Positions 1,888-13,625 of a stretch of DNA of 41,881 bases are shown here, piece by piece; within the stretch, counting starts at the first letter, position 1, and each line of letters starts with the position of its first letter. Origin of the DNA: Thiohalomonas denitrificans (GTDB lineage: Bacteria; Pseudomonadota; Gammaproteobacteria; Thiohalomonadales; Thiohalomonadaceae); NCBI RefSeq assembly GCF_016841685.1, contig NZ_JAENYR010000028.1:1-41881 (forward strand), given 5' to 3'. A model generated the notes under the pieces. The model worked only from the letters and a program-made list of their open reading frames with translations. It was not told the DNA's origin and ran no database searches. Position numbers and translations under genes: made by a program.

Positions 1888-3063
1888 TCAGAACTCGATG
1901 CTTAGTGCTACAGAACCATGCGCCTGGTTGGCCTGCTGTTCCTCGAATTCCCGTGAGCGATAGATACGCATCACGGCCAACCTGACGCCGTTTCCTGACA
2001 CCAGACCGTGAACACTGATCCCGATTGAAGCCTGGGCAACCCATGGTCGGCGAGTGACACGGTGGCTTGAGCGAAAGAGGTTGCCGTCGAGTGAAAAGTC
2101 ATGCGCGACGAGCTTCGCTTCCAGCGTCCCAAAGAGCTGAACACCCGGACGTACCCTGGGGGCTGCCGAAGGGGTACCGCTCGGGCTGCTGTGGACGGAG
2201 GCGGATGGAGGACGATTTTCGGCGCCCGGTCGGATCGGATAGGTTCCGAAGTCATTTGGTAGATTCCAACCGATACGTCCTTCGATACCCAGGGTTGCAG
2301 AGGTTTCGATGTTGCCCAGCCGCAGCCCCAGTGAGCTTATCGAATCGGCAGAGAAACCGGGCGTAACCGCGCCCGTTCCCCGATACTCCTTGAACTTGCG
2401 GTCCATGGCCAATTGTAGTGCCGGCTCATTCTCCAATTGATGCTCCCAACCGGCAAATCGCTCGCTGCCGACCATATCGTGGACCACATTCTGTGACTCT
2501 TCCGCGAGCGACAGCGGGCCGATAACGCCGAATGTGACCTCGCGTGTATCGAGCATTTCCCGATTGCTGCGCGGTTCATGTTTGCGGCGGTTCCACGACA
2601 TTCCCACGTACAGCAGGCCCGCATAGGGCCGATCGTCCGGGATCAAATCGGTCCTGGTATAGTCTTCTGGCGTGAACATGGACTGACCGAATTTCACTAT
2701 CACGTTTTGTGTGGGTGCGGAGTCTCCCGCATCGGACCAGAAACCGGGATTTACCAACTGGATGAATTTTGCATGCAGCCGCACCGGTTTCGGCAGGCAT
2801 TTGGTTTGCAGTCTGCCCGGAATGTCGTGGGACACAGCGGTGAATACCACACCGTTGGTATAGTTTTGGTCTCTGCCGATAAACAGGTCGTTTTCGAGCC
2901 TTGCCGTCCCCCCGCGAAATCTGACGGCTTCCTCTGCCTTGCAATCCCCGATAGCAGGGGTATTTTCATCGGCGGCTTGTGCCATGGCCGGGGCAATGGG
3001 CAAAAACAGCGCGAGTACCCACGCGACTTTTCGCCGCACATGCTTGGCCGAGGGATGCCTCAT
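1888..3063 (-). CDS. LpxR-like lipid A 3'-O-deacylase (DUF2219 family)
   Basis: A 391-residue outer-membrane beta-barrel with an N-terminal signal peptide (cleavage probably after AMAQA, near residue 30). Family hallmarks are visible: RLENDLFIGRDQNYTNG at about 55-71, containing the Asn58/Asp59 and Thr69 that correspond to the LpxR active site; DDRPYAG at 143-149; and VHDMVGSERFAGWEHQLENEP around 194-214, with His195 in the expected catalytic region. The C-terminus ends in Phe, as is usual for BAM-inserted barrels. Known family members remove the 3'-acyloxyacyl group from lipid A. A Pro/Ser-rich loop near 280-300 (PPSASVHSSPSGTPSAAP) may be a surface extension. No clear ribosome-binding site is seen before the ATG. 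The exact substrate here is inferred. Confidence 0.88.
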   Translation of the reverse strand: MRHPSAKHVRRKVAWVLALFLPIAPAMAQAADENTPAIGDCKAEEAVRFRGGTARLENDLFIGRDQNYTNGVVFTAVSHDIPGRLQTKCLPKPVRLHAKFIQLVNPGFWSDAGDSAPTQNVIVKFGQSMFTPEDYTRTDLIPDDRPYAGLLYVGMSWNRRKHEPRSNREMLDTREVTFGVIGPLSLAEESQNVVHDMVGSERFAGWEHQLENEPALQLAMDRKFKEYRGTGAVTPGFSADSISSLGLRLGNIETSATLGIEGRIGWNLPNDFGTYPIRPGAENRPPSASVHSSPSGTPSAAPRVRPGVQLFGTLEAKLVAHDFSLDGNLFRSSHRVTRRPWVAQASIGISVHGLVSGNGVRLAVMRIYRSREFEEQQANQAHGSVALSIEF

Positions 3064-3234: not shown

Positions 3235-3762
3235 TTATTGGGATGTTGGTCGGGGAGCGGGGTCTGCGGACTCCAGATTGGTCTCCTGGTGCGGGTAGCG
3301 CTCCAGTGCCCATTTGGGAAGAGTGCCGTTACTGGCGTGCTGCATGGCCTCTGACTCCATGAGAATCAAGACCAGCATGGTCCCCATCACCGGCACCCCG
3401 AAAACCCCACCGACCGCATAATGGCCCGGCTTCAGATCACCGCCTGATATCGCCAGCAGTCCCAGGATAATGGCCCCTGCGATCACCCACATTGCGGCGA
3501 AAAAAAGGCTTCGTTTTGCGGCGATCTGCCAGTGACAGACAACGAACCAGGGATCCCGGATCTGTGACCGCTTGGCCCGCCAGAGGGTGTACCCAAGGAT
3601 TGCTGCCGACACGATGGGCACGATAAGCACCGTGCCCCGCAGGGAAGTCGCCATCAGCGCTGCAATGAGCAAAAAAATGTGGTTGAAAACCAGGTTGACC
3701 AAGAACAGTTCATGCGGTGACCTGGCCCTGACAGTATCGCTTTTGGAAACCTCGTAGCGCAT
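3235..3762 (-). CDS. Small multi-pass membrane protein, function unknown
   Basis: About 175 residues with four predicted transmembrane helices (near 17-35, 38-57, 82-103 and 118-135) and a hydrophilic tail rich in Pro and Glu. I do not recognise the family. The ATG at 3762 is chosen because an AGGAG lies 8 bases upstream; a GTG at 3769-3771 would sit directly on that ribosome-binding site. The gene is divergent from nsrR, and the NsrR-like palindrome at 3813-3835 lies about 50 bases upstream, so it may belong to the nitric-oxide response. That link rests on position only. Confidence 0.75.
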   Translation of the reverse strand: MRYEVSKSDTVRARSPHELFLVNLVFNHIFLLIAALMATSLRGTVLIVPIVSAAILGYTLWRAKRSQIRDPWFVVCHWQIAAKRSLFFAAMWVIAGAIILGLLAISGGDLKPGHYAVGGVFGVPVMGTMLVLILMESEAMQHASNGTLPKWALERYPHQETNLESADPAPRPTSQ

Positions 3763-3812
3763 CTCTTTCACTCCTGGTGGTGGTCGGTGAATGGCAAACC
3801 TAATAGACTGAT

Positions 3813-3835
3813 AAGTAGTATCTGTAATGCATCTA
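3813..3835. promoter_or_regulatory. Putative NsrR operator between nsrR and the divergent membrane protein
   Basis: Read on the reverse strand the 23 bp form an 11-1-11 partial palindrome: left half TAGATGCATTA, right half AGATACTACTT. Against the known NsrR consensus (AAGATGYATTT and its mirror) I count about 9/11 and 8/11 matches. It ends 25 bases before the nsrR ATG, which fits autoregulation and possible control of the divergent gene. Confidence 0.6.
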
Positions 3836-3860
3836 GGCGATACGAGTGGAGCCCGTCTTT

Positions 3861-4301
3861 ATGAACCTGACCCGCCACACCGATTATGCCCTGCGCGTGT
3901 TGATGTATCTGGGCAGCCAGCCGGAGCGACTGGCGACCATCTCCGAGATCGCACAGTCGTACGCCATTTCCCGCAACCATCTCATGAAGGTGGTGCATGA
4001 ACTGGGTCGCGCCGGGATTGTCCGCACCGTCCGGGGACACGGGGGCGGGATTCAGCTCGGCCGCGATCCGGCTGCGATCAATGTTGGTGAGGTGGTGCGG
4101 TTGATGGAGGGGAATCTCGACATCATCGATTGTGCCAAACCGGGCTGTCCCATTGCCGCGGCCTGCGGTTTGCGAGGGGTATTGGACGAGGCACGGGACG
4201 CCTTTCTTGCAGTGCTGGACAGTTACAGTCTGCAGGATCTGATTCAATCCCGACGCACCCGGCTGAAGAGCCTGCTTCGAATCGAGAGACCGGTCGGTTG
4301 A
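3861..4301 (+). CDS. nsrR: Rrf2-family nitric-oxide-sensing repressor NsrR
   Basis: A 146-residue Rrf2-type winged-helix regulator. The N-terminus MNLTRHTDYALRVLMYLG is the usual NsrR/Rrf2 opening, with the recognition helix around SRNHLMKVV and the wing GHGGGIQLG. Three cysteines in CAKPGCPIAAAC (near 91-102) are placed as in NsrR, where they bind an NO-sensitive Fe-S cluster. NO damages the cluster and relieves repression. The ATG at 3861 is preferred over the GTG at 3846 because GGAG at 3848-3851 lies 9 bases upstream and would be inside the longer form. It lies next to a nitric oxide reductase operon that carries a strong NsrR-type operator. The family call is firm and NsrR over IscR is supported by both Cys spacing and context. 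Confidence 0.9.
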   Translation: MNLTRHTDYALRVLMYLGSQPERLATISEIAQSYAISRNHLMKVVHELGRAGIVRTVRGHGGGIQLGRDPAAINVGEVVRLMEGNLDIIDCAKPGCPIAAACGLRGVLDEARDAFLAVLDSYSLQDLIQSRRTRLKSLLRIERPVG

Positions 4302-4333
4302 TTCTATCCGTCTCTTGTCCGCAAGTTGTCGCA

Positions 4334-4942
4334 TCATGTTTTCCTCAACGCCGGATCAGGTGATGGCGACAGCGGCCGCGCTGCGACGCCAGCCGGCCGT
4401 GAGGGGATGAACGCACGAACCGTCAATGCCGTCGCGATCACAAAGCCGAGTAGCAACAGAATCTGACCGACCAGCGCCTGCTCATCGATGCGATAATTGT
4501 TGCAGACCCGAACCGGTGCACTGAGATAGAGCCAGGAGAGCACCCACAGCATCGCGATCAGGTTGCTCCAGACGAGTCCACGGCCGATCGCCGTCAAACG
4601 GCGCCAGCTCAACTGGAGCGGGATGCCGACCAGGAGTGGTAGCGAAAGGAATTTCCCGATCTCGTACGCCGTTCCTTCCAGGGAGGCATCCAGATGGCGG
4701 GGCAGCATCCAGAAGAGGGCGGTGATCACCACCAGGGCCAGTCCGGTTAGGCCATACCCGTTCATCGCCTGCAAAGCTTTCCGCTTCCCGGCAGGTAATC
4801 CCCACCCGATCCAGACGCCGCTGAGGACCAGAAGAGGGATCTGCAGCAGCATGTGGCCCGCCATGGTTTGCTCGAAGGCATGGCGTATCGGCGGAAGTGC
4901 CAGTATCCCGAAGAGCAACAGGCCTCCGGCCATCCATTTCAT
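4334..4942 (-). CDS. Membrane protein 'orf1' of the norSY-senC-orf1 operon
   Basis: A 202-residue protein with five or six predicted transmembrane helices and a conserved-looking GHMLLQIPLLVLSG segment and FWMLPRHLD segment containing His residues that could bind metal or heme. Clusters named norSY-senC-orf1 in ammonia oxidisers have a membrane protein in this position, possibly an assembly or copper-handling factor; no activity is established. Its ATG overlaps the senC stop (ATGA, 4939-4942), so it is translationally coupled as the last gene of the operon. It ends 32 bases from the convergent nsrR stop. Confidence 0.78.
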   Translation of the reverse strand: MKWMAGGLLLFGILALPPIRHAFEQTMAGHMLLQIPLLVLSGVWIGWGLPAGKRKALQAMNGYGLTGLALVVITALFWMLPRHLDASLEGTAYEIGKFLSLPLLVGIPLQLSWRRLTAIGRGLVWSNLIAMLWVLSWLYLSAPVRVCNNYRIDEQALVGQILLLLGFVIATALTVRAFIPSRPAGVAARPLSPSPDPALRKT

Positions 4943-5541
4943 GGGCGGCCCTCCAGAAATCCGAGCACGGCTGATGGGTCGTCGTAGTCGAAGATGGCGA
5001 CCAGAAGGCCGCCGGGATCGATCACATACATCGCCGCGTTGTGTTCATAGCCGCCCCACCCGTCGGGAATCACGGTCACCTGAAAGGTATCCAGCAAGGC
5101 CGGTAACCGGTCGGGGTCGGAAGCCCGTGCAATCGACCAGTGATCGGCATGGGCGCGGTAGCGTCTGGCGTAATACTCCAGCTGCGGCAATTGGTCATGG
5201 GTCGGATCAAAACTGATGCTCAGCAGGGATACACCCCGGCCCAGCCGCTCTTCGGGCAGCCCGTCGCGGATCTCGCTCAGCGTGTTGCCGGCAGTGATGC
5301 AGAGATCGGCGCAGCGGGTGTAGATAAAATCCAGTACCACCCACCTCCCGCGGAACTGTTCAAGACCGAACCGGCTCCCGGTGTGGTCCTGCAGCATCAG
5401 CGCAGGGACCGGACGGGGGGATTTACGGATATCCAGCCGGCGCGCACCCTCGGTGGTGAAGGCGCGCGCCCCGTCCGTGGCTGTCCAGAGCACTCCGGTT
5501 CCGGTCAGCAGCACAAGGATGGTTGCCAGAGCGGTTCGCAT
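4939..5541 (-). CDS. senC: SCO1/SenC-type copper chaperone
   Basis: A 200-residue thioredoxin-fold protein with an N-terminal signal/anchor helix (about 4-20). The copper-binding CADLC (CxxxC) follows the beta strand VVLDFIY, and the distal His is in YEHNAAMYVIDPGG, as in SCO proteins that deliver copper to CuA sites. The start at 5541 overlaps the norY stop (TGATG), which argues for coupling; a longer reading frame upstream runs antiphase through norY and is not used. Its likely client is the CuA centre of NorS. Confidence 0.9.
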   Translation of the reverse strand: MRTALATILVLLTGTGVLWTATDGARAFTTEGARRLDIRKSPRPVPALMLQDHTGSRFGLEQFRGRWVVLDFIYTRCADLCITAGNTLSEIRDGLPEERLGRGVSLLSISFDPTHDQLPQLEYYARRYRAHADHWSIARASDPDRLPALLDTFQVTVIPDGWGGYEHNAAMYVIDPGGLLVAIFDYDDPSAVLGFLEGRP

Positions 5542-7010
5542 CAGTTCACTTCGGTTGCCAGTGCCACCGGTCTGGTTGCGAACAGCCGTGCCAGAAACTG
5601 CAGCGCAAAGACCAGTACCGAGGTGACCACCACCGCCACAAAGGCAGAGGCAATCTGATCGTAGGGAACCCATTGGGGCAGGTGTTCCGCAAACCGGCGC
5701 GGCACGCTGTTCGCACCCGAGTAGAGGAACATGAACACGAAGCCCAGCGAGCCGAACATGAAGCCCCAAAACGCCCAGCGAGCGAACCAGCGGTCCTCCT
5801 GTTCCACGCTCTCTTTCCCGAGGAAATGCATGAACCCGAACAGCATGGAGGCTACGCCGATGAGCAGGTAGAAGTGGAAGTGGCCGGGTACCCAGAGCGT
5901 ATTGTGCATCACCATGTTGACGCGGATGGTGGCGTCGACGATGGCGGGGATCACCCCGGCGGCCCATCCGAATACGGAGAGCACCAGCAGACTGGAGGTC
6001 ACATCCCAGCGCATGCCCGACCGGTAGATGAGCATCAGGGCACCGAAAGTGGTTACCACCAGTACCGGAAGCCCGCTGGTATAGGAGATGACCTGCCCCA
6101 TGACCATCATCCAGGTAGGCATGGCAAAGTCCATCAGCAGATGGTGCGGATAGACAATCAAGACCATGATGGTGGATGCGGTCCAGGCCGCCAGGAAGGC
6201 CTTGTTGGGTTTCCAGGGCCGTTTGGCATAGAGCGGCAGGATCTCGTAGACCGCGATGATGGCCATGTAGATGGTGGCGTTGATAAACACGTGCCCGAAG
6301 AAGTAGATCAGGTTTTTGGCGAGCAGGGGATCGATGGTGAAGCTGGGCACGTAGAGGTTGACCAGACTCATGACCAGAATCGCCGCACCGGCGGTAATCC
6401 CCAGAATATTTACGATGGTGACCATGGTACTGGCGACCACCGTCGGGGGCGGCGCCTCACCCGAATCGCGGCCAAACAGCTGGGGCCAGCCCAGCCCCTG
6501 TCCCAGGCTTCCGTACTGGCGAGTGATGGCGCGTGCAAAATCGAGGTGAAGGATGAGAAACCCGGTGCCGATCAGCAGCAGACCGCCCAGGAACAGGGCT
6601 GCCGCTCCCGTGCCCCAGAGTCCCATGCCCTTGGCCGGCAGTGGATAGAGGAACGTCCAGCCGGCGGCGAAACCGCCGCCCAGAATGCTTCCCAGGATCA
6701 TCACTACGCCCACCAGGAACAGGAGCAGGTTCGCGACAAACAGGGTCCGCGACAGGTCGAGATAACGGCTCGCGAAGTACCACATGATCGCCGCTGAACC
6801 CAGGGCAGCGATACCGACCATGCCGGCACCGTGGACGGTGAGTAGCTGGTAGAAGAAACCCGGTGAGATATCCAGCATCTCGCCCTGAGCAAGGCGCATC
6901 ACCAGACCCACGATCATCATCAACAGCAGAACGACGGCGCTGACCCCGACGTAGATGTTCACGAGCGGTTGGGCCGGTTGGGTATTCCCGCTTTCGTTTG
7001 CGTGGGACAT
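5541..7010 (-). CDS. norY: sNOR-type nitric oxide reductase, heme-copper catalytic subunit (NorY)
   Basis: About 489 residues, twelve or so transmembrane helices, heme-copper oxidase subunit I fold. Counting from the chosen Met: low-spin heme His60 in the helix-II motif HGAGM; CuB ligands His240 in GHVFIN and His289-His290 in YPHH; high-spin heme His377 and second low-spin ligand His379 in GHFHF. In oxidases the helix-VI motif is GHPEVY with a cross-linked Tyr; here the Tyr position is Asn244 and the Glu is absent, as I recall for sNOR enzymes, so NO reduction rather than O2 reduction is expected. Two adjacent ATGs at 7008-7013 follow a GGGGAG; the first overlaps the norS stop. Coupled to senC downstream. 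Confidence 0.88.
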   Translation of the reverse strand: MSHANESGNTQPAQPLVNIYVGVSAVVLLLMMIVGLVMRLAQGEMLDISPGFFYQLLTVHGAGMVGIAALGSAAIMWYFASRYLDLSRTLFVANLLLFLVGVVMILGSILGGGFAAGWTFLYPLPAKGMGLWGTGAAALFLGGLLLIGTGFLILHLDFARAITRQYGSLGQGLGWPQLFGRDSGEAPPPTVVASTMVTIVNILGITAGAAILVMSLVNLYVPSFTIDPLLAKNLIYFFGHVFINATIYMAIIAVYEILPLYAKRPWKPNKAFLAAWTASTIMVLIVYPHHLLMDFAMPTWMMVMGQVISYTSGLPVLVVTTFGALMLIYRSGMRWDVTSSLLVLSVFGWAAGVIPAIVDATIRVNMVMHNTLWVPGHFHFYLLIGVASMLFGFMHFLGKESVEQEDRWFARWAFWGFMFGSLGFVFMFLYSGANSVPRRFAEHLPQWVPYDQIASAFVAVVVTSVLVFALQFLARLFATRPVALATEVN

Positions 7011-7552
7011 CATGCTCCCCCTTCTTCTTGATTCGTCAGCACCTGGAATTCGGCTTTCATCTGGTGGTGGGCTACGCCGCAATATTCGAGGCAGAGGATC
7101 TGGTAGGTGCCGGGCTGGTCGAAGACGTGGACCAGTTCATTGGTATAGCCCGGCATCGCCTGGGTCTGGGCAACCAGGCGCATGGACTCGTCGTAGATAC
7201 CGAAGCCGTGGTTTACATCGGCGCTTTCGACCCGAAACACCACGGTTTGACCGACCTGCGCCTCTGATTCGCTGATTTCCCAGTACCACTGATAGCCCAT
7301 GGCGTCGACGTGCAGCGCCTGCGCGTCGGCGTTTGTGGCGGCGGCATAGGGCATTTTCATCAGAGTGACTCCCATCAGCGGAATACCGGCTGCGGCGAGC
7401 GCTACGAACAGCCGCTTCCGCCAGCGGTAGCCGGATTGCTGGATGGTTTTGTACTCGGCTCGCTGACGCGAGCGGGTGATCACCCAGACAAACACGGCCG
7501 CGAGGGTTGCGATTGAGACCGTGGTGATGAGCCACACCGTTTCCTGCATCAT
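7010..7552 (-). CDS. norS: sNOR CuA subunit (NorS), cytochrome oxidase subunit II-like
   Basis: About 180 residues with two N-terminal transmembrane helices (near 8-24 and 48-66) and a periplasmic cupredoxin domain. The CuA ligand set is complete: His in DVNHGFGIYD and CLEYCGVAHHQM (C-x3-C-x3-H-x2-M). It accepts electrons from cytochrome c and passes them to NorY. I place the start at the ATG-ATG pair at 7547-7552, with GGGAGAGGA immediately upstream; an in-frame ATG at 7573 lies inside the NsrR-like operator and is unlikely to be used. First gene of norS-norY-senC-orf1; its stop overlaps the norY start. Confidence 0.88.
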   Translation of the reverse strand: MMQETVWLITTVSIATLAAVFVWVITRSRQRAEYKTIQQSGYRWRKRLFVALAAAGIPLMGVTLMKMPYAAATNADAQALHVDAMGYQWYWEISESEAQVGQTVVFRVESADVNHGFGIYDESMRLVAQTQAMPGYTNELVHVFDQPGTYQILCLEYCGVAHHQMKAEFQVLTNQEEGGA

Positions 7553-7568
7553 GAAATCCTCTCCCAAT

Positions 7569-7615
7569 AACATGTATGGTCAATACATCTTTGCTGGCGA
7601 GCCGGTTAATGTCAA
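7569..7615 (-). promoter_or_regulatory. NsrR-controlled promoter of the norSY-senC-orf1 operon
   Basis: On the reverse strand a perfect -35 TTGACA lies at 7615-7610, and 17 bp later a weak -10 AAAGAT at 7592-7587 runs into a 23-bp near-palindrome at 7591-7569 with left half AAGATGTATTG and right half CCATACATGTT. This matches the NsrR consensus at about 19 of 22 defined positions. The operator covers the region around the transcription start, the expected position for repression relieved by NO. Confidence 0.75.
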
Positions 7616-9127: not shown

Positions 9128-9833
<706 letters not shown>

Positions 9834-11925: not shown

Positions 11926-12843
11926 TCAGGCTAGGCGAAGTATTCGAGCAAGTTTATCTCGTGCCTTCATGTACGCGGCCCTGTCAGTAGACGAAAACTT
12001 GCTAATATTCCGAAGTTTCCAGCGTACCGCCGGTAATTCAGCGATTCCAGGGAGACCAAGTAAGTCCCAGTCAGGTTCCAAGTCTTTGAACGAAAGAAGA
12101 AACTTCCGGTGTTCCGGGCCTAGCTTGTCGTTTATTTCGCGGATAAGTCGCTCTCTAGCAGACACGAGGTCTTCAAGACCGATCGGTTCGCGAGTCATTC
12201 CTTGAAACTCGGTTACAAAGATAGGCTCCAGGGGTGCAAGGTTCGGTGCCAAGACCTCCGAAAAAGGTCGATTATGGCTGATTAGATAGACGATAAAACC
12301 TCGGATGAGGTCTTCTGAAAGACCTTCATTTTGAAACAGCAAATGTACATCGAAGAGGTCGCGTGGGTGCTGCCGGTCAAGGGCGGCAACCAACTTACCG
12401 CCGTAAAGGTCTTCGTGCGACACCAGCAACATCTCTGCAAAGCCGAACTCTTGTTCGACGGCTGGGACGACCCTCTTGAGAGAAGAGGGGAATGCCGTGC
12501 CACGCAGGACGGGCGATAGCTCTACTTTTACCTGCGCCGCGTTTGCGCGGACGAGCATACGGGGTGATCCCCCTCCAGCGGCGATGGTCACGGTGCTGCC
12601 TTGAATACGGCGCTCCACGTCTTCCTTAATCCGTCCAAAAGCTGCGGCTACTGCTGCCAACGCTTCAGCTCGCTCGTCATTGCCGAGATAGACGAGGTCG
12701 ATATCAACCGACAGCCGGGGCAGATCCCGGACGAACAGGTTGATTGCCGTACCGCCCTTCAGGGCGAAGCAGCTCTCGCGGGCTATCGAGGGCAGCACCC
12801 TGATAAGGAGCCGAACCTGTTGCTTGTACTGTGGCGCTATCAT
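11926..12843 (-). CDS. abiEii: AbiEii/MenT-family nucleotidyltransferase toxin
   Basis: A 305-residue DNA-polymerase-beta-fold nucleotidyltransferase, toxin of a type IV toxin-antitoxin/abortive-infection system. The motifs are visible: FALKGGTAINLF (motif I, GG-T), RLSVDIDLVY (metal-binding D-x-D), HEDLYGGKLVAALDRQHPRDLFDVHLLF (motif III/IV region with conserved Lys and Asp). Members of the family inactivate translation, for example by adding nucleotides to tRNA acceptor ends; which target applies here cannot be read from sequence. The ATG overlaps the stop of the upstream abiEi (ATGA, 12840-12843), the standard arrangement. The gene appears intact. Confidence 0.92.
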   Translation of the reverse strand: MIAPQYKQQVRLLIRVLPSIARESCFALKGGTAINLFVRDLPRLSVDIDLVYLGNDERAEALAAVAAAFGRIKEDVERRIQGSTVTIAAGGGSPRMLVRANAAQVKVELSPVLRGTAFPSSLKRVVPAVEQEFGFAEMLLVSHEDLYGGKLVAALDRQHPRDLFDVHLLFQNEGLSEDLIRGFIVYLISHNRPFSEVLAPNLAPLEPIFVTEFQGMTREPIGLEDLVSARERLIREINDKLGPEHRKFLLSFKDLEPDWDLLGLPGIAELPAVRWKLRNISKFSSTDRAAYMKARDKLARILRLA

Positions 12844-13625
12844 GGGTGAAAGCCTTCACCCGACCGGGGCGCCATGTCACGTGGGACTGTGATGAGGTAC
12901 TTCGGGTCGAGATGGCCGCCGGGCGTTAGCTGACGTTTGCCGTGGCCCAAGTCCACGCGTTCGCGGTTCAGGTACCGGACCCACGCGTGCCCATGGCGTT
13001 CGGCGAACCAGAAGAAGAGGCGGCGAGCTTTTACAGATGCCAGGGTCAGGGCCTCATGGGAAAGTGATGGCCGCATGTCGGTTAGGGACTCGAAAACCAT
13101 ATCGACTTGGTGCCAGGAGGCTTTCGGCAGCTCTTCCAAGAGCTGAAGCGCCGCCAGTTCCTGGGTAGCTGCCCGAAGCGCTGTGCCTTCAACTTTTTGT
13201 TCGGTGGAAAGGGTGGAAGGCACCGATTGTCGGTGATATTGGAATACTACGTCGATTTCCAGCCGGTTAACCCAAGTGGGTGGGTGTTTAGGGCCATAGA
13301 CGTGGATGGTCGATTGTCCGGCACTTACATAGTGCGAGTAGCCGGCGAGCTCCAAAGCGGTAAAGCCGCCTATGACCAGCTCGTAGCGTAATAGATGCTG
13401 GAGTGAGCGGATGACATCCATCCATCGGAGTGGGAGTTCCGGATCGGTACGGTAGAACACGCCGCGAGCCGGGCTGGCAAGCCAACCGCTACGGACGTAC
13501 TTCTTAACCAGAGATCGACTATATCCCTGCTCTTGGAGCCAGGCGTAGGTCACTGGCAATCTGGCCGGAAGGCGGCGCTGGAGTTGGTTTAACTTGGATG
13601 AATGTTGGCTACTCATGGTTGCCAT
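12840..13625 (-). CDS. abiEi: AbiEi-type antitoxin and transcriptional autorepressor
   Basis: A 261-residue protein with an N-terminal winged-helix segment (residues about 20-60: LPVTYAWLQEQGYSRSLVKK, then YVRSGWLASPARGVFYR) and a larger C-terminal AbiEi domain (GGFTALELAGYSHYV, VKARRLFFWFAERH). In characterised systems this protein neutralises AbiEii without direct contact and represses its own operon by binding inverted repeats upstream. Start could be the ATG at 13625 or at 13616. An inverted repeat lies just upstream (13629-13667). Confidence 0.9.
   Translation of the reverse strand: MATMSSQHSSKLNQLQRRLPARLPVTYAWLQEQGYSRSLVKKYVRSGWLASPARGVFYRTDPELPLRWMDVIRSLQHLLRYELVIGGFTALELAGYSHYVSAGQSTIHVYGPKHPPTWVNRLEIDVVFQYHRQSVPSTLSTEQKVEGTALRAATQELAALQLLEELPKASWHQVDMVFESLTDMRPSLSHEALTLASVKARRLFFWFAERHGHAWVRYLNRERVDLGHGKRQLTPGGHLDPKYLITVPRDMAPRSGEGFHP

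Follow-up and report, generated by a model that had tools for sequence, protein, structure and literature searches.

An sNOR-type nitric oxide reductase operon in Thiohalomonas denitrificans with an adjoining NsrR-like regulator and predicted operators

Introduction

The norSY-senC-orf1 gene cluster and the sNOR name for its nitric oxide (NO) reductase are established (PMC4940428, PMC3764937), and ammonia oxidizers such as Nitrosomonas europaea (NE0683-86) and Nitrosospira multiformis (Nmul_A2667-64) carry the four genes in this order (PMC4940428). Here, we describe a cluster with the same genes in the same order in a 41,881-nucleotide stretch of Thiohalomonas denitrificans DNA (hereafter, the window), which is contig C73 of a 3.79-Mb draft genome in 160 contigs. 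Unlike the clusters of the ammonia oxidizers, this one has an nsrR-like gene alongside, in a genome that also carries nirS and norCB. The best explanation of the locus as a whole, and one that we hold with considerable confidence, is an sNOR operon for NO removal under an NO-sensing NsrR-like repressor, with enzyme activity and repressor binding predicted from sequence.

Several described systems come close to this arrangement. The nsrR listed for N. europaea, NE0926, is treated together with the nirK operon (PMC4940428). In Nitrosococcus oceani, NsrR (Noc2967) is encoded near Noc2969-2971, the genes for SenC, NorY, and NorS (PMC3772326); this nearness is judged from the locus tags, and the parts of that source covered here state no operator or NsrR control. 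Proteobacterial NsrR regulons (hmp, hcp, dnrN/ytfE, nnrS, norB, and nirK) share the regulator type and the box found here, and the part of Rodionov et al. covered here names norB and nirK, not sNOR, as NsrR targets (PMC1274295). The open-licence literature that we searched, in the parts covered, held no statement that NsrR controls sNOR, a weak indication that none exists. It is itself disputed whether the role of sNOR is to remove NO or to respire oxygen (PMC6967387). The parts of the present locus are known from other bacteria and their arrangement is not rare; what is new is a second NsrR-type box, a perfect operator in a congener, an apparently separate wiring for each of two NO reductases in one genome, and a recurring link between NsrR and sNOR.

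Gene content of the locus

The genes and sites considered here are as follows, in window coordinates.

7010-7552, minus strand: norS, CuA-bearing subunit II of sNOR (COX2 match, complete CuA motif)
5541-7013, minus strand: norY, catalytic heme-copper subunit of sNOR (COX1 match, tree position, Asn245)
4939-5541, minus strand: senC, SCO1/SenC copper chaperone (PF02630, CADLC)
4334-4942, minus strand: orf1, encoding a membrane protein that may be a reduced CtaG-like assembly factor for the copper centre
3861-4301, plus strand: nsrR-like Rrf2 regulator (identity to Escherichia coli NsrR, Rrf2 Pfam match)
3235-3762 or 3771, minus strand: small membrane-protein gene, divergent from nsrR (reading frame)
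7569-7591, no strand: predicted NsrR-type operator over the norS promoter (consensus match, congener)
3813-3835, no strand: the weaker of two NsrR-type boxes, between nsrR and the membrane gene divergent from it (2 mismatches in 14)
7587-7615, minus strand: putative norS promoter (TTGACA at 7615-7610, 17 bp, AAAGAT at 7592-7587)

An initial annotation of this DNA had described norS with a complete CuA motif, norY, senC with a CxxxC motif, and orf1 as overlapping on one strand, with nsrR convergent, and the coordinates, junctions, and motifs bear this out. On the minus strand, the four genes run head to tail from 7552 to 4334 and overlap by 4, 1, and 4 bases (junctions ATGA, TGATG, and ATGA), a layout that predicts one transcript, and their order is that of sNOR clusters. 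The 3' ends of the nsrR-like gene and orf1 face each other across 32 bp. The five genes in the span 3235-7615 are as had been described; a sixth, the small membrane-protein gene on the minus strand, had gone unmentioned.

Pfam matches support these names: COX1 for NorY (184 bits), COX2 for NorS (33.4 bits), SCO1-SenC for SenC (PF02630, 57.3 bits), and Rrf2 for the regulator (140 bits). NorS scores 78.9 bits against the CoxB model, under that model's cut-off of 147.7. It carries CLEYCGVAHHQM, a complete C-x3-C-x3-H-x2-M motif, with DVNH upstream, and SenC carries CADLC (CxxxC) with a His further on; C-x3-C-x3-H-x2-M is the CuA motif. A CuA cupredoxin subunit II, as expected of an sNOR, is therefore present by both Pfam match and motif.

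NorY groups with sNOR and carries the sNOR active-site residue

We placed NorY in a maximum likelihood tree of 48 heme-copper subunits, comprising 22 sNOR, 11 A-type, 5 B-type, 2 C-type, 4 bNOR, and 2 cNOR rows and 2 sister rows. The tree draws on 18 of the 30 reference loci, leaving out L148, L159, and L160 along with the redundant L152, L154, L156, L157, L169, L174, and L175 and others. NorY lies within the 22-row sNOR set (support 98/97), which includes Nitrosospira NorY (L032) and also spans NorY from Aromatoleum, Thiohalobacter, Bacillaceae, Mariprofundus, and Nitrospinaceae. The A-type, C-type, and cNOR rows form separate groups apart from NorY, and NorY falls outside the B-type group; the clustering with oxygen reductases that the initial annotation had named as decisive against its reading did not occur. 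The deep branching order is unsure because long branches meet there, as the tree program warned, and the sNOR set itself is starred.

The active site was compared across the same rows. NorY has Asn245 four residues after the CuB ligand His241, at the position of the cross-link Tyr of oxygen reductases. Asn occupies this position in all 22 sNOR rows, which were picked by similarity to NorY and not by motif, and in 4/4 bNOR and 2/2 sister rows. Tyr stands there in 16/16 A- and B-type rows and Glu in 2/2 cNOR rows; the Tyr and Asn of the reference rows are partly circular because the A, B, C, cNOR, and bNOR labels were given from helix motifs taken as class signatures, four of the five B-type rows being chosen by the Tyr motif and only L178 being so labelled in its record. 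Six His residues that serve as heme-copper ligands (H61, H241, H290, H291, H378, and H380) are kept in 22/22 sNOR rows.

A published residue table assigns Tyr at this position to oxygen reductases, Glu to cNOR and qNOR, Asn to sNOR and CuANOR, Gln to eNOR, and Asp to gNOR (PMC8756737). In Bacilli, bNOR (CuANOR) is likewise an NO reductase of the CuA type that has Asn there (PMC8756737); in our tree, unlike sNOR, the rows labelled bNOR nest among the B-type oxidases.

These results bear on the proposal that NorSY is a high-affinity, B-type-like terminal oxygen reductase and that the sNOR name is wrong. The retention of CuA and of all six His ligands would suit such an enzyme, and in N. europaea, where an oxygen reductase has been argued for, sNOR transcripts rose 2.7- to 10.8-fold under oxygen limitation, which weighs against a role in NO removal (PMC6967387). 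NorY, however, has Asn in place of the Tyr, as do all 22 sNOR rows, and lies outside the B-type group, and the predicted norS operator described below is of the NO-repressor type. Lacking the cross-link Tyr, NorY was rejected as a B-type oxygen reductase, and the tree and the active-site residue together rule against the oxygen-reductase reading of it; we give the proposal little credence. The assignment of NorY to sNOR made in the initial annotation is borne out by the tree and by the active-site Asn, the published sNOR signature.

The two sister rows, L018 and L177 (Thermomicrobium roseum), join the sNOR set on long branches. L177, from a T. roseum plasmid, and L018/L113 are CuA-type heme-copper proteins that are 34 to 36% identical to NorY and have Asn at the Tyr position. 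In T. roseum, a formate/nitrite transporter gene and a CtaG gene adjoin the heme-copper gene. These proteins possibly represent a separate class of NO reductase.

The adjoining Rrf2 protein resembles NsrR

Over 140 columns, the regulator shares 44% identity with E. coli NsrR, and its Cys91, Cys96, Cys102, and Asp8 line up with the same residues there. In Streptomyces coelicolor NsrR, the ligands of the cluster are three Cys and Asp8 (PMC5411485), and the regulator has all of them. Only one other match to it was found in the genome at 1e-5, and that protein groups with E. coli IscR. In the regulator tree, which was built without a RirA reference and leaves out L108 and the cut-off L026, the IscR-type sequences branch separately.

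Against an NsrR identity, the regulator scores 141.6 bits with the NCBIfam NsrR model, short of the cut-off of 182, and the RirA model follows closely at 131.2 bits. This equivalog cut-off is a naming rule and not a biochemical feature; because it is not reached, we call the regulator NsrR-like. Among 10 sNOR-side regulators scanned (9 of them as the matched stretch), the NsrR model scored best in 8 and was beaten by RirA in 2, and none of the 10 reached the NsrR cut-off. The enzyme could accordingly be an NO reductase whose Rrf2 neighbour answers to iron or Fe-S status, as RirA does, and not to NO. The close model scores and the two regulators that RirA fits best favour this; the regulator's resemblance to E. 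coli NsrR (44% identity, with the Cys and Asp residues in matching places), the separate branching of IscR-type sequences, and an operator that fits the NsrR consensus speak against it, and we regard it as unlikely.

Predicted NsrR-type operators and their form in a congener

The NsrR box consensus is gATGyAT-N5-ATrCATc (PMC1274295). The palindrome at 7569-7591, AACATGTATGGTCAATACATCTT, contains a box at 7571-7589 with 1 mismatch in 14 to this consensus. It is the only site with at most one mismatch in the draft genome and the best match there. The genome holds 20 sites with at most 2 mismatches; reversing the pattern gives 4. A looser scan of the window (at most 3 mismatches) gave 7 matches against 3.5 expected and so by itself is no evidence.

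A second NsrR-type box, with 2 mismatches in 14, lies at 3815-3833, in the stretch that separates nsrR from the divergent membrane gene. It falls within an opposite-strand reading frame of at least 80 amino acids, which we take to be spurious.

We looked at 15 of the 20 genomic sites, including the two of this locus. Of the 13 elsewhere, 10 are inside frames of at least 80 amino acids and 3 outside, and no known NO-response gene was recognized beside them, judging by the opening residues of the frames on either side and with no family search made. NnrS is encoded on contig C124, on which no site with at most 2 mismatches occurs.

Among the relatives searched, a single genome (G369) belongs to the same genus; it has the locus, with norY 97% identical at the DNA level. 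Its norS site, AAGATGTATTGCCAATACATCTT, is a perfect 23-bp palindrome with 0 mismatches to the consensus, and 20 of its 23 bases match those of the window. The nsrR-side box is also identical at 20/23 positions, with 3 mismatches to the consensus (2 here) and the right half, ATGCATC, kept. The intergenic stretch that holds it is 94% identical, compared with 90% for nsrR and 83% for the membrane gene.

Some observations count against an NsrR circuit. The norS operator is no better kept than its surroundings, its 87% identity (20/23) equalling that of the norS upstream stretch; because 3 changes in 23 are no fewer than around it, the argument from the congener is one of a gain in symmetry and not of slow change. 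The nsrR-side box is weak and is weaker still in the congener. The norS promoter is another: the TTGACA is present at 7615-7610, and the -10 candidate, AAAGAT at 7592-7587, lies 17 bp on and overlaps the operator, but we judge it weak because it has 3/6 matches and a promoter scan did not list it. Of the earlier claim that an NsrR-like palindrome sits on a TTGACA promoter, the palindrome and the TTGACA therefore stand, and the -10 element is the weak part. The NsrR-operator circuit as a whole is supported by the Cys/Asp ligands, the consensus match, and the congener, with binding predicted; the sNOR reading of the initial annotation was right, and its NO-sensing circuit is very likely.

No NorY match at 1e-20 was found in 17 other genomes of the family, some of which are incomplete. 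The likely history is therefore a gain of the sNOR cassette in this genus or its loss elsewhere in the family.

The nsrR-sNOR link recurs in other bacteria

A scan for an sNOR alignment, with one genome per species, gave 418 relatives; we used the best 80 of the 418 plus class-level loci, so the sample leans to relatives of this NorY. Searched by tblastn against 94 loci, the six window proteins matched as follows: norS at 92, norY at 93, senC at 89, orf1 at 92, nsrR at 27, and the membrane gene at 0. The 94 include the duplicates L108/L110 (equal to L055/L079), the genome's own norCB region (L101, no match), a 34 to 35% relative (L113), and a locus without norS (L114), all of which are excluded from the counts over 89 loci below. 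A locus was called linked when the window NsrR had a tblastn match at E 1e-4 within about 6 kb on either side, or less at contig ends; some of these matches may be other Rrf2 proteins.

An nsrR-like gene is linked at 26 of the 89 loci. In the 250 bp before norS, boxes of at least 12/14 occur at 12 loci, compared with 0.23 expected from shuffles, and boxes of at least 11/14 at 24, compared with 2.8. The stronger boxes concentrate where the regulator is linked (10/26 versus 2/63 unlinked loci; Fisher p 4.6e-5, in a test that ignores relatedness). The regulator lies upstream on the other strand at 14 linked loci, downstream on the same strand at 10, and downstream on the other strand at 2, the last, rarest layout being the convergent one of the window. 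Its occurrence up- or downstream in three layouts argues against simple shared descent, and the nsrR-sNOR link was probably put together more than once.

The same counts can be read as a linkage that is coincidental or merely inherited, with the box unused. On this side are the 63 of 89 loci that have no linked nsrR-like gene, 61 of them also without a box of at least 12, and the 16 of 26 linked loci without such a box before norS, among them all linked Gallionellaceae/Gallionellales and Methylophilaceae loci; these boxless linked loci detract from the circuit proposed here. The enrichment of boxes where nsrR is linked, the three layouts (14, 10, and 2 of 26), and the perfect operator of the congener run counter to this reading, to which we give little credence.

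The initial annotation had called a compact regulator-operator-operon arrangement rarely described for this enzyme class. With 26 of 89 loci linked, and with N. oceani and Ruegeria pomeroyi as precedents, that view does not hold. On the megaplasmid of R. pomeroyi DSS-3 (SPO_RS20765-SPO_RS20745), an Rrf2 gene stands beside norS-norY-SCO-membrane protein, and norS is preceded by a perfect 23-bp palindrome that scores only 10/14 to the consensus. The regulator is divergent there and convergent here, and a formate/nitrite transporter gene follows the Ruegeria cluster. Such a gene comes after the sNOR cluster on the plasmids of both L176 (Ruegeria) and L179 (Parasedimentitalea); before norS of L179 there is no good NsrR box (9/14).

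FNR/DNR-like boxes of at least 9/10 precede norS at 7/63 unlinked loci (0.55 expected) and at 1/26 linked loci; the 7 are not independent because all are Aromatoleum. In these loci (L019, L022, L023, L024, L025, L036, and L064), the box scores 9/10 and lies about 100 bp before norS, which suggests that sNOR is under another control in Aromatoleum.

Two NO reductases with different upstream boxes

The genome has nirS and norCB on contig C80. Upstream of nirS is TTGATGCAGATCAA, a 10/10 match to the FNR/DNR-type pattern TTGAT-N4-ATCAA, and upstream of norC is TTGACTCAGGTCAA, an 8/10 match; the best NsrR score before each is 8/14. The norS upstream region scores 13/14 for NsrR and 6/10 for FNR/DNR and contains neither of the two FNR/DNR boxes. 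With an NsrR box before norS and FNR/DNR-type boxes before nirS and norC, the sNOR and the cNOR of this genome look separately wired, as judged from the boxes.

In the mechanism that we propose, NorS would use its CuA to accept electrons from a periplasmic donor and hand them to the heme/heme-copper centre of NorY, which would reduce two NO to nitrous oxide (N2O); SenC, and perhaps orf1, would load the copper. While its Fe-S cluster is intact, the NsrR-like repressor would sit on the 7569-7591 operator, across the norS -10 region, and also, at its own promoter, on the weaker box. NO would damage the cluster and lift repression, and the sNOR would then remove the NO. The norCB and nirS genes would instead answer to an FNR/DNR-type activator, which would make sNOR an NO-triggered detoxifier and cNOR a part of anaerobic denitrification.

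More broadly, control of sNOR by NsrR may be a module that is widespread in Proteobacteria and Nitrospinota and was assembled there repeatedly; it would identify sNOR as an NO-triggered detoxification reductase, wired apart from the FNR/DNR-controlled denitrification NOR of the same cell. NsrR here would serve this locus alone, a similarly narrow NsrR regulon having been reported for S. coelicolor. We advance this generalization tentatively, at just under an even balance. An operator of the NO-repressor type at norS, recurring in distant bacteria and unseen at nirS and norC, predicts that NO is the signal for sNOR; if so, an NO switch, and not anaerobiosis, would set part of the N2O that such bacteria release.

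orf1 and the divergent membrane gene

The orf1 gene accompanies norSY-senC nearly always (92 of 94 loci). Its product matches no Pfam family above cut-off. The orf1 alignment started from 47 named loci, of which 44 gave references and 40 were used, leaving out L031, L070 (stop codons), L075, and L041 (taken out by hand). Among its 41 members, none matches Pfam Caa3_CtaG at E 0.01 and 4 match DUF1404. Compared by hhalign with 14 CtaG proteins, the 41 members gave 86.7% (pairwise E 4.4e-6, 180 columns), against 0.4% for the orf1 alignment with a single CtaG protein and 0.2 to 0.3% for three other alignment comparisons, whose shallower alignments keep them from being a strict control. The structure model of orf1 (predicted local distance difference test [pLDDT] score, 93.5) has no Foldseek match in the PDB at E 0.001 or better; its best VIA-align result has Z 8.2 over about half of the model. 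The profile-profile match is suggestive, and it is roughly an even call whether orf1 is a reduced CtaG-like copper-centre assembly factor.

The divergent membrane gene probably starts at the ATG at 3762, which follows AGGAG, a GTG at 3771 being possible. It shares a promoter region with nsrR, which suggests that it too may be under NsrR control. Of the other genomes searched, 17 of 18 in the family and 0 of 11 in the rest of the class have a homologue, and no match at E 1e-4 was found in the 94 sNOR loci. In all four regions examined from other genera of the family, a ccoI-like P-type ATPase gene, confirmed by Pfam in 3 of them, is at most about 1 kb from the gene, with FixG and FixH found by Pfam in 1. 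The family thus appears in relatives near cbb3-maturation genes; the paralogue in this genome and the second copy in the congener sit elsewhere. The protein matches no Pfam family above cut-off, and its model (pLDDT 76.6) has no Foldseek match at E 0.001.

Genomic surroundings

The block with the sNOR locus is flanked by tRNA-Ser genes at 1582-1672 (cga) and 9128-9217 (gga), and a gene for an LpxR-type outer membrane protein lies at 1888-3063 (Pfam, 274.5 bits). By blastn, the block is collinear in the congener, with tRNA-like stretches at both ends. Farther along, a 94-amino-acid frame at 10954-11238 matches positions 2 to 64 of a 375-position Na/H exchanger model and is perhaps a truncated or frameshifted gene. 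Over the 20 kb compared, similarity to the congener runs continuously to about 9750, stopping before an AbiEii/AbiEi type IV toxin-antitoxin pair at 11926-13625 (Pfam).

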